DNA from: Methanocellales archaeon
GTDB taxonomy: Archaea > Halobacteriota > UBA148 > JAJOKI01
Direction: 5' to 3'
Assembly: GCA_021129915.1 (NCBI GenBank)
Contig: JAJOKI010000043.1
Coordinates: forward strand, 1-10,196
DNA length: 10,196 nt
This document shows, piece by piece, positions 11 through 10,196 of the stretch. Numbering within the stretch: the stretch's first letter is position 1; each line of letters opens with the position of its first letter. A model generated the notes under the pieces. It searched no databases, was not told the origin of the DNA, and was given only the letters and a program-made list of their open reading frames with translations. The translations under genes were made by a program, and so were the position numbers.

Positions 11-92
11 TGTTTCATTTTTGGAGGAAATGAAACATCTGTGAGTCCGTCTAAACCTTCGGTTTAGTCGGTGTTCCATCTGTGACATTCAC
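11..92 (+). repeat. Structured palindromic repeat, copy 1
   Basis: This is non-coding. Bases 30-55 are identical to 5300-5325 inside rpl10, and 63-71 are identical to 5334-5342. Hairpin A is CCG (47-49) with CGG (69-71), a U-U mismatch, then CTAAAC (51-56) with GTTTAG (62-67). Where copy 2 differs, the C56-G62 pair becomes T-A, so pairing is kept. On the 5' side a separate 10-bp stem forms between 11-20 and 28-37 around the loop TTGGAGG. On the 3' side CATCTGTGACA (77-87) matches CATCTGCGACA of copy 3 (6110-6120) at 10 of 11 bases. The true left end is uncertain because it lies near the window edge. The function is unknown. Confidence 0.75.
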
Positions 93-192: not shown

Positions 193-211
193 TTGAGGGA
201 GTTCATATACT

Positions 212-415
212 GGGCGTGTGGCCTAGTCTGGATAGGGCGGCAGCCTCCTAACAACCTTTTGGAAAAAGGGGTTTCTGCCTGCGAATCTTTGATTCGAGGC
301 ATGCGGAAACGCCTTCCTACGGAATTTCCGCTGCGCAAGACAGAAAAGATAAAGGTTAATCAAAATCGGGGGAGGGGAAAGCTGTAGATCGCGGGTTCAA
401 ATCCCGTCACGTCCG
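212..415 (+). tRNA. tRNA-Arg (anticodon CCT) with intron
   Basis: The mature parts fold into a standard cloverleaf. Acceptor GGGCGTG (212-218) pairs with CACGTCC (408-414), with one G-U, and the discriminator base is G415. The D stem is 221-224/235-238 with GG at 230-231. The anticodon stem GCAGC (240-244) pairs with GCTGT (381-385). The loop is C T CCT A A, with anticodon 247-249. The T arm GCGGG/CCCGT (391-395/403-407) encloses TTCAAAT. CCA is not encoded. The anticodon reads AGG codons; C35 and A20 (base 232) agree with known arginine identity elements. The intron separates loop position 37 (base 250) from 38 (base 380). The mature length is 75 nt. Identity rests on the anticodon and fold and is quite secure. 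Confidence 0.92.
251..379 (+). other. 129-nt structured tRNA intron
   Basis: The intron lies at the canonical 37/38 site. CTCC (245-248) can pair with GGGG (374-377, one T-G), leaving three-base bulges TA^A (249-251) and AA^A (378-380). This is the helix-bulge core cut by the archaeal splicing endonuclease; the intron-side helix of a full bulge-helix-bulge is poor, so the motif is relaxed. Inside are two clear hairpins: GCCT/AGGC (277-280/297-300) extended by CGAATC/GATTCG (282-287/291-296), and GCGGAAA/TTTCCGC (303-309/325-331) enclosing TTCC/GGAA (314-317/321-324). AACCTTT (253-259) can pair either with AAAGGTT (351-357) or locally with 264-273. No homing-endonuclease frame and no convincing C/D boxes were seen. 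Confidence 0.8.
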
Positions 416-457
416 TTAAATAGAGTGCAGCAGCTCTTGTGAACGTCGTTTTGATGC

Positions 458-5082: not shown

Positions 5083-6060
5083 ATGGCAGAAGTGTACAGC
5101 ACCCATATTCCAAAATGGAAGAAGGACGAAGTCAAATGGATTAAAGAGTCAATTAATTCTCATCCTGTAGTGGGCATAGTAAATGTTCATGGAATTCCAG
5201 CAAGGCAATTGCAGCAGATTAGGGCGGAGTTATATGGGACGGCAATTCTGAAGATAGCCCGAAATACGCTCATCGAAAGGGCGCTTGATGAGGTCACAGA
5301 TGAAACATCTGTGAGTCCGTCTAAATCTGTTGATTTAGTCGGATCTGATAAAAAGGTCCGCGTGCTGAAAGAATTTATTGAGGGACAAACTGCACTGCTG
5401 TTCACCGAACTGAATCCATTCAGATTACACAGACAGATCGAGAAAAATAAGTCATCTGCACCAGCAAAGCCAGGAGATATCGCTCCACATGACATCATCA
5501 TAGAAAAAGGTCCAACTTCCTTTAAACCAGGTCCAATAGTGGGAGAGCTCCAGAATGCCGGGGTGCCAGCTGCGATCGAGGGTGGCAAGGTGGTAATTCG
5601 GGAGCGTAAAGTCCTCGTCAAGGCAGGCGACAAAATTCAGCAGCAGGTTGCAGATATTCTGGCAAAACTTGAGATATATCCAATGGAGGTTGGCTTGGAT
5701 TTAAGGGCAGTATATGAAGGAGGAATGATATTCAGACCCGATATATTGGCGGTCGACGAATCCAAATACTTCTCGGATTTCATGACTGCCGTGCGTAATG
5801 CTTTTAACCTATCGATTAATATCGCATATCCTACAAGTGCATCGGTTCCGGTATTACTGCAAAAGGCATCTGTCGAAGCGAGAAGTTTGGCGATTGATGC
5901 GATGATATTTGAGCCAGATGTCATCGATGTACTACTTGCAAAAGCAAATGTTCAAATGGTATCCCTAACAGCCAAACTTTCAGAGAAAGGCTCAGAGTCA
6001 AAATCCAAACAGGTGTCAGAAGAAGCGGGTGAAGTTAAAGAGGGAGAAAAGGATATATAA
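5083..6060 (+). CDS. rpl10: Large ribosomal subunit protein L10/P0 (uL10), with insertion and short tail
   Basis: L10 anchors the L12 dimers of the ribosomal stalk to 23S rRNA. The 325-residue protein has the conserved core: PKWKKDEV near the start, KIARNTLIERAL (57-68), NPFRL (111-115), the KGPTSFKPGPIVGELQNAG part and the Methanosarcina-like LEIYPMEVGLDLRAVYEGG, followed by helices that hold L12. Two things are odd. Residues 72-89 are encoded by copy 2 of the palindromic repeat and appear to be about 17 residues extra between RNTL and NPF. The C-terminus ends in EVKEGEKDI without the GLGALFG tail normally shared with L12, which recruits elongation factors. The reading frame is open throughout. 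L1 lies one base upstream and rpl12 84 bases downstream. Confidence 0.93.
   Translation: MAEVYSTHIPKWKKDEVKWIKESINSHPVVGIVNVHGIPARQLQQIRAELYGTAILKIARNTLIERALDEVTDETSVSPSKSVDLVGSDKKVRVLKEFIEGQTALLFTELNPFRLHRQIEKNKSSAPAKPGDIAPHDIIIEKGPTSFKPGPIVGELQNAGVPAAIEGGKVVIRERKVLVKAGDKIQQQVADILAKLEIYPMEVGLDLRAVYEGGMIFRPDILAVDESKYFSDFMTAVRNAFNLSINIAYPTSASVPVLLQKASVEARSLAIDAMIFEPDVIDVLLAKANVQMVSLTAKLSEKGSESKSKQVSEEAGEVKEGEKDI
5295..5346 (+). repeat. Structured palindromic repeat, copy 2, inside rpl10
   Basis: Hairpin B is an 8-bp perfect stem, CACAGATG (5295-5302) with CATCTGTG (5306-5313), around AAA. Hairpin A follows: CCG/CGG (5317-5319/5340-5342), a U-U mismatch, and CTAAATC/GATTTAG (5321-5327/5332-5338) around TGTT. 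Bases 5300-5325 equal 30-55 of copy 1. It is translated as roughly DETSVSPSKSVDLVGS (L10 residues 73-88). The mRNA carries the folded element inside the coding sequence. Confidence 0.8.
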
Positions 6061-9581: not shown

Positions 9582-10196
9582 ATGTTCCTAGAATGTATCG
9601 AATGTAAAATCCAATATCCAGATTCGGAAATCATTTACATATGCTCAAAGTGCGGCGGGCTTCTTGATGTCATCTATGATTATTCGAAGATCGATTTTCA
9701 CCCGTCAGCACAACCCCCCTCCGTTTGGAAGTATGAACCACTTTTGCCAATCAGGGGGGACCCGGTATCGATACACGAGGGGGGAACTCCCCTCTACAAA
9801 TGCGACCGGTTAGCGAAGCAAATCAGCATCCGCGAGTTATACGTCAAACATGAAGGCTTGAACCCGACTGGTTCGTTCAAGGACAGGGGGATGACCGTCG
9901 GCGTATCAAAGGCGCTTGAATTAGGAATGCGAACCGTTGCTTGTGCATCCACCGGCAACACATCCGCATCTCTTGCGATATATGCGGCAAAGGCTGGAAT
10001 ATCTGCTGTGGTGTTGCTGCCAGCCGGCAAGGTGGCGATGGGAAAGGTTGCGCAGGCGTTGATGCACGGCGCCAAGGTCATCAGCATTAAGGGCAACTTT
10101 GACGATGCATTCCAGCTGGTGCAAGAGCTGTGTGATCAAGGGGGATTTTACCTTCTCAACTAGGTGAACCCGTTCAGGCTTGAGGGGCAGAAGACC
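9582..10196 (+). pseudogene. thrC: Threonine synthase, 5' part, interrupted by in-frame TAG
   Basis: Threonine synthase converts O-phosphohomoserine to threonine using PLP. The N-terminus has a zinc-ribbon-like pair (Cys5, Cys8, Cys21, Cys24) found in archaeal-type enzymes. The PLP lysine is Lys100 in GSFKDRGM, and ASTGNTSAS (122-130) is the phosphate-binding region. After 193 residues, LLN is followed by TAG (10161-10163), then VNPFRLEGQKT continues in the same frame to the window end. Relatives read NSINPFRLEGQKT, so the stop replaces a conserved serine; one base change from TCG would do it. The remainder lies beyond the window. Nonsense mutation, sequencing error or readthrough are all possible. 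TAG is an ordinary stop in secE and the isomerase gene here. Confidence 0.8.

Follow-up and report, generated by a model that had tools for sequence, protein, structure and literature searches.

A 51-nt two-hairpin insert in the ribosomal protein L10 gene of an archaeon related to Ca. Serpentinarchaeum Met12, with related in-frame inserts in other genes, points to a very small mobile element

The window, i.e. the whole stretch of 10,196 nt analysed here, is contig C17 of G000, a fragmented 730-kb draft genome which is 77% complete. Its gene for ribosomal protein L10 carries an insert consisting of two short hairpins, F4 and F2, in the order GG, F4, GT, F2 (Table 1). As a reference we used its sister genome, G001, which belongs to Met12 (Ca. 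Serpentinarchaeum) and consists of one contig of 1,067,436 bases; the L10 of G001 (P0002) has the source name 'Methanosarcinales archaeon Met12'. From the kinship label given by the genome tool it follows that G000 is a further member of the genus Ca. Serpentinarchaeum. Rfam yielded no match within the window at gathering scores. Searching the window for tRNAs without introns gave none, and the tRNA-Arg gene appeared once introns were allowed. In the threonine synthase frame (9582-10163) an early stop lies inside a conserved stretch that is uninterrupted in the G001 copy, which is either a nonsense change or a sequencing error. On the minus strand, at 1017-1860, a gene which we take to be initiation-factor-2B-like is split into two open frames that overlap, as though a frameshift had occurred near 1375-1463; here, aligning it briefly with one stretch of G001 gave nothing useful. 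Met12 comes from The Cedars and represents Ca. Serpentinarchaeum by a circular genome; in the main text describing it there is no mention of repeats, introns, palindromes, insertions, transposition or non-coding DNA (PMC11176372).

Table 1. Features of the window that bear on the L10 insert
Feature	Position	Strand	Description
Second copy of the repeat	29..71	+	non-coding DNA at contig start; 72-87 then resembles the 3' half of another F4 hairpin
tRNA-Arg(CCT)	211..416	+	129-nt intron (251-379) with other small hairpins
Ribosomal protein L10 (uL10/P0) gene	5083..6060	+	325 aa; carries the insert
Inserted element	5292..5342	+	51 nt; residues 71-87; translation VTDETSVSPSKSVDLVG
Hairpin F4 in the insert	5294..5314	+	TCACAGATG AAA CATCTGTGA; 9 bp, loop 3
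Hairpin F2 in the insert	5317..5342	+	CCG T CTAAATC TGTT GATTTAG T CGG; 10 bp, one T.T mismatch
Palindromic insertion between L10 and L12	6085..6119	.	35 nt; not in G001; contains GATGAAACATC

The DNA of G001 holds the corresponding empty site, GATGA^ATCTGATGAAAAGG, also given as GATGA^ATCTGATG; at the position marked ^ the window has 51 bases more. The flanks of the two L10 genes are collinear and, judged against G001, the insert has no target-site duplication. Its frame is open through all 17 residues. Alignment A1 comprises 20 L10 proteins including that of the window, hand-chosen among 120 matches listed of 2396; the extra residues occur in none of the 19 others, all of which show a clean gap of 17 residues. 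These 19 include P0003, a protein slightly nearer to the window's L10 than that of G001 (92% vs 90%). In the named genome collection only distant relatives of L10 were found. The first-pass annotation was therefore right in proposing an insertion and a gap in the relatives; its estimate of 12-17 extra residues at 72-89 has to be replaced by 17 residues at 71-87. In one homologue, P0014, about 34 residues are duplicated in tandem and in frame, at a site other than that of the window's insert.

At the DNA level the insert folds into two hairpins with a z of -7.4 against 200 shuffles, calculated on 5293-5343, that is, shifted by one base from the insert ends. The AlphaFold2 model of the window's L10 (20 sequences, mean pLDDT 72) agrees with archaeal L10 structures. 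In this model residues 75-88 have a pLDDT below 50 and are located between the helices 61-70/73-76 and 90-98, and the position of the insert is one at which solved L10 structures vary in length. Therefore, the insert is predicted most likely to form a floppy loop. The additional bases might also have come from an assembly artefact or contamination at a repeat, since G000 is a fragmented draft and contig C17 itself starts at another copy of the L10-type repeat. However, the single-contig genome G001 holds the same kind of in-frame inserts and the L10 flanks are collinear with it, which makes this explanation extremely improbable.

This second copy at the contig start had been noticed before, from 26 bases of rpl10 that recur in non-coding DNA at 30-55. 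The match, with 5300-5325, is exact over 26 nt and stops there at both ends; chance alone would give about 1e-8 repeats like this in the window. As had also been described, both copies run on into the same hairpin, CCGTCTAAA..TTTAGTCGG, resulting in 91% identity over 43 nt. A nearly full 27-mer (up to three mismatches) is found in G000 at these two places only, and the 26-mer has just the one other place in this genome, whereas its two hairpins recur in both G000 and G001. Compared with the two genomes, the 66-nt stretch 5285-5350 gave part matches at 7 places in G000 (self included) and 20 in G001, of which the weakest 2 and 4, respectively, have E values above 0.01. The F2 pattern CCGTCTAA..TTAGTCGG, with no mismatch allowed, occurs at 5 places in G000 and 13 in G001, two genomes of the same genus, and gave no match in the remaining 58 of the 60 genomes searched. 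Where F2 is translated in L10, GuaB and PolB, it reads PSKSxDLVG or PSKSSDLIG. Viral contigs were also searched: a loose F2 pattern had 43 matches, three of them with 9 of 11 mirrored positions complementary, none of which is an F2 hairpin by eye; the F4-F2 pattern had no match in this collection, which may omit records very near to the genome of the window.

The composition F4-GT-F2 places the L10 insert in a second type of element, several copies of which, judged by eye, sit elsewhere within the F4 hairpin of another element. The commoner unit is built as T-[25-nt F1 hairpin]-TC-[21-nt F4 hairpin]-CA and is likewise 51 nt long. In the available sequence we counted 36 such F1-F4 units in five genomes, or 33 after dropping those sharing the same 10 upstream bases. 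Nearly all have TC as the two-base linker. A T precedes the unit in 30 of the 33, and it is followed by C in 28 and then by A in 31, so that the ends TGTYG...CRACA form short imperfect terminal inverted repeats. Contig C71 of G000 carries one unit at a site which in G001 is shorter by exactly 51 nt, again with no target-site duplication. There is a short open frame at C71 (91 aa, no Pfam match); since a one-base difference to G001 lies just upstream and the frame is not conserved between the species, this site is left out of the genic cases. Further outward, 30 of 33 units have A as the ninth base after F4 (binomial 5e-14) and 24 of 33 have T as the eighth base before F1 (binomial 1e-7), both columns having been picked after looking. 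The flanking A's stand in the empty C71 site too; therefore, they may reflect a target preference, although at the spacer site 400203 the position is covered by other inserted DNA. Pairing between the flanks, inspected around 27 of the 33 sites, showed no clear excess.

For the F1 hairpin a model, GTTG-x-6 bp-3-nt loop-6 bp-x-CAAC, was built from 11 distinct copies. All 110 cells are paired, five of the ten pairs have changed on both sides, and the covariation score is 0.371 compared with 0.167 in shuffles; the copies were picked by their hairpin form, and some were turned to make the mismatch A.A, a choice that favours pairing. Searching with E <=1, strands merged and up to 150 candidates scored per genome, the model gave 33 places in G001, 12 in G000, 8 in G003, 5 in G008 and 3 in G005, and none in G002, G004, G006, G012 and G013. 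About one chance match per genome is expected at this threshold, the weakest rows thus being uncertain. The matches in G003, G008 and G005 indicate that F1 extends to other families of the order; F2 was seen in this genus only. F1-type 25-mers number 12 in 400 kb of G001, where shuffles give 0.33, and 5 in 271 kb of G000, where shuffles give 1.0; 80 kb each of G002, G005 and G012 contain none. Hairpins of any kind exceed shuffles merely about threefold, at a density like that in the L10 regions of relatives, and for this reason the family is defined by its own sequence and mismatch.

Local quasi-palindromes arising from template switching during replication, with no mobile element involved, would account for stems that remain complementary as their sequence drifts, as is the case here and as template-switch correction would give. 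The end of HisE in G001, which resembles a completed palindrome in comparison with the G000 form, fits this as well. But 36 places in five genomes share one two-hairpin unit whose order is constant and whose linker hardly varies; this, together with an exact 51-nt empty site, argues for dispersal, and we consider template switching very improbable. A CRISPR repeat and a conserved regulatory RNA are further readings that we do not favour.

The observation is wider than first noted: within this lineage, related inserts lie in further important genes as well as in the introns of tRNA genes. Including L10 there are eight species-specific in-frame gains, in seven protein families, for which the sister species has a shorter site. 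GuaB has gained 81 nt, PolB 105 nt in two pieces of 78 and 27 with five bases between them, and TiaS of G001 102 nt; net gains of 42 nt each were found in AsnB and LeuRS, and of 18 nt, with an F4 hairpin, in a DUF2070 protein. TiaS of G000 (L166) has a net gain of 48 nt at a different place from that of G001. It contains hairpins of other sequence, with neither F1 nor F2, and is edged by a 12-nt direct repeat, GACGGGAGTTCC; perhaps a different mechanism was at work in this case. Inserts larger than 51 nt are composites, and the junctions of AsnB, LeuRS and the 400203 spacer show extra local changes and no clean 51-nt gain. Among ten other genomes the gap was seen in all ten for TiaS and in eight for GuaB, the remaining two having no full match; for PolB the matches of all ten begin only past the insert. 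Genic copies were detected via the open frames spanning them, which favours in-frame cases, as disruptive ones would be missed or purged. Within this limit, the proposal of the first-pass annotation that the element entered an essential gene without breaking it, much as Rickettsia palindromic elements do, is supported by the inserts in the seven families.

Gaps against protein families or solved structures point to further inserts in CarB of G000 (about 26 extra residues), the CCA-adding enzyme of G003 (a 17-residue gap), dTMP kinase of G001 (about 20 extra residues, a second stretch being weak) and IleRS of G001 (13 extra residues, less clean). Weak cases are Endo dU and DUF362, with stretches that exceed the matching part of the profile by 13 and 9 residues. 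According to our tally, 10 of the 33 F1 places in G001 fall within eight Pfam-named genes. F1 hairpins of G001 also stand at the extreme 3' ends of HisE (L086 4239-4263) and of an RFC small-subunit gene (L223 1501-1525), and the HisE end differs between G001 and G000.

Scanning 45 sequences with introns allowed, ARAGORN called 42 tRNA genes, of which 27 contain an intron; this tally includes one gene twice, and a few calls look doubtful, for instance a 'stop' tRNA. The introns called in this genus range from 15 to 295 nt. Hairpins of the F1, F2 or F4 type occur within those of tRNA-Lys (295 nt), tRNA-His (290 nt) and tRNA-Gln (178 nt) of G001 and of tRNA-Thr-TGT (84 nt) of G000, all near position 37/38. 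In the intron of the window's tRNA-Arg none of the three was seen. For tRNA-Ile-GAT the intron length differs strongly between the sister species, G001 having 197 nt and G000 21 nt (L085 18279-18552, L098 10659-10756), with the additional DNA consisting of other hairpins. That the same modules are found in tRNA introns up to 295 nt long, near position 37/38, might suggest that the genic inserts are archaeal introns as well, removed from the mRNA by the tRNA-splicing endonuclease as in the tRNA genes of this genus, so that normal proteins are made. However, splicing does not need the property shared by all eight genic gains, a multiple of three in a stop-free frame, although our detection route favours such cases. 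Furthermore, the fold of the L10 RNA consists of separate hairpins with no bulge-helix-bulge discernible by eye. We therefore regard splicing as quite improbable.

The clean gain as compared with G001 and further relatives, the dispersal, the hairpins, the covariation in one hairpin family and the frames that stay open through the insert in several important genes are all directly observed. On these grounds the L10 insert is probably a copy of a mobile, non-autonomous element about 51 nt long and composed of two short hairpins. A recombinase acting in trans would move it, probably by recognising the hairpins. Insertions that hit a surface loop, a tRNA intron or a spacer would be the ones to persist. 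The consensus of the unit is open in four of six frames. This openness, together with a length that is a multiple of three, would explain why the element is tolerated in genes: 51 nt correspond to 17 codons, stop-free frames may make many genic insertions harmless, and the insert would be translated as a floppy loop in the protein.

As to the enzyme, no Y1 transposase (Y1_Tnp) was detected in G000 (77% complete), G001, G003 and G005, and no reverse transcriptase in the five genomes searched. The Y1_Tnp search was positive in 5 of 14 control genomes; G002 has a broken piece only, and is a genome with no F1 match. These results bear on the view that a REP/IS200-IS605-like miniature element is involved, whose mismatched hairpins would have been mobilised, in single-stranded form, by a Y1 (HUH) transposase since lost or supplied externally. 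The constant position of the mismatch, close to the hairpin base, and the C71 gain of exactly one unit with no target-site duplication speak for it; the absence of Y1_Tnp from the four genomes as compared with the positive controls, the location of the only, broken, piece and the flank bias on both sides speak against it, and on balance we think it unlikely. Tentatively, though less probably than not, the mobile element proposed here may represent a new class of minimal element: about 51 nt, two hairpins only, no target duplication and a mobilising enzyme that belongs neither to the known Y1/REP systems nor to the retro ones. Its multiple-of-three length would then let it invade the essential proteome, as well as tRNA introns, across several families of an archaeal order.

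If the reading as a mobile element is true, protein-coding palindromic elements, so far known mainly from Rickettsia bacteria, would extend to Archaea, here to an environmental lineage whose genome is compact. Several important enzymes are available in pairs with and without insert, which would test how proteins accept unselected 17-residue loops. The element is also a possible cause of some long tRNA introns in this genus. Finally, it provides a very small defined unit for studying how such elements move; to our knowledge, this is an open question for the Rickettsia elements, and we know of no established mobiliser for them.

Several known systems resemble the element in part. In mitochondria of Nematomorpha perfect inverted repeats of up to 284 bp are reported from protein genes, with both arms coding; inverted repeats lie within protein genes here too, but as short two-hairpin units dispersed as inserts (PMC6649704). 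REPs are hairpins of 20-40 bp, occurring also as dimers and some within genes, and CGTC families without known transposase exist among them (PMC3733652). Small hairpins, tandem pairs and some genic copies are thus shared with the GTAG/CGTC REPs, and F2 contains CGTC. Unlike here, the REP hosts named in the available text of PMC3733652 are bacteria, our element lacks the 8-9-bp stem and the CCA tail, and Y1 genes, which belong to the REP/RAYT system, were not found in four genomes. The unpaired GTAG or CGTC end tag of REP/RAYT is absent as well, since the CGTC of F2 spans the paired outer stem with its T.T mismatch. MITEs are much longer than the 51-nt element. They share with it, in prokaryotes including archaea, the small non-autonomous form and imperfect inverted ends (PMC10969869; here TGTYG/CRACA), and differ in that our two clean sites, L10 and C71, have no target-site duplication and that no parent element was found in the searches for Y1 and RT.

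As the first pass had supposed, no archaeal coding palindromic element was found in the literature searched, most subscription journals being outside its reach. No RPE family is among the NCBIfam matches listed for seven proteins (the best 25 for two of them), a database which may hold no RPE models. In behaviour, the closest resemblance is to the RPEs, elements of about 150 bp inserted in frame in Rickettsia genes (Ogata 2000, 2002, via PMC10969869). The element described here differs by its archaeal host, its length of about 51 nt, its two tandem hairpins and its additional occurrence in tRNA introns. Like RPEs it is a dispersed palindromic repeat that occupies spacers as well as unrelated genes, in which it lies in frame and leaves the reading frame open, so that the products here would presumably remain functional. 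A similar process in other prokaryotes is called conceivable in the same source (PMC10969869).
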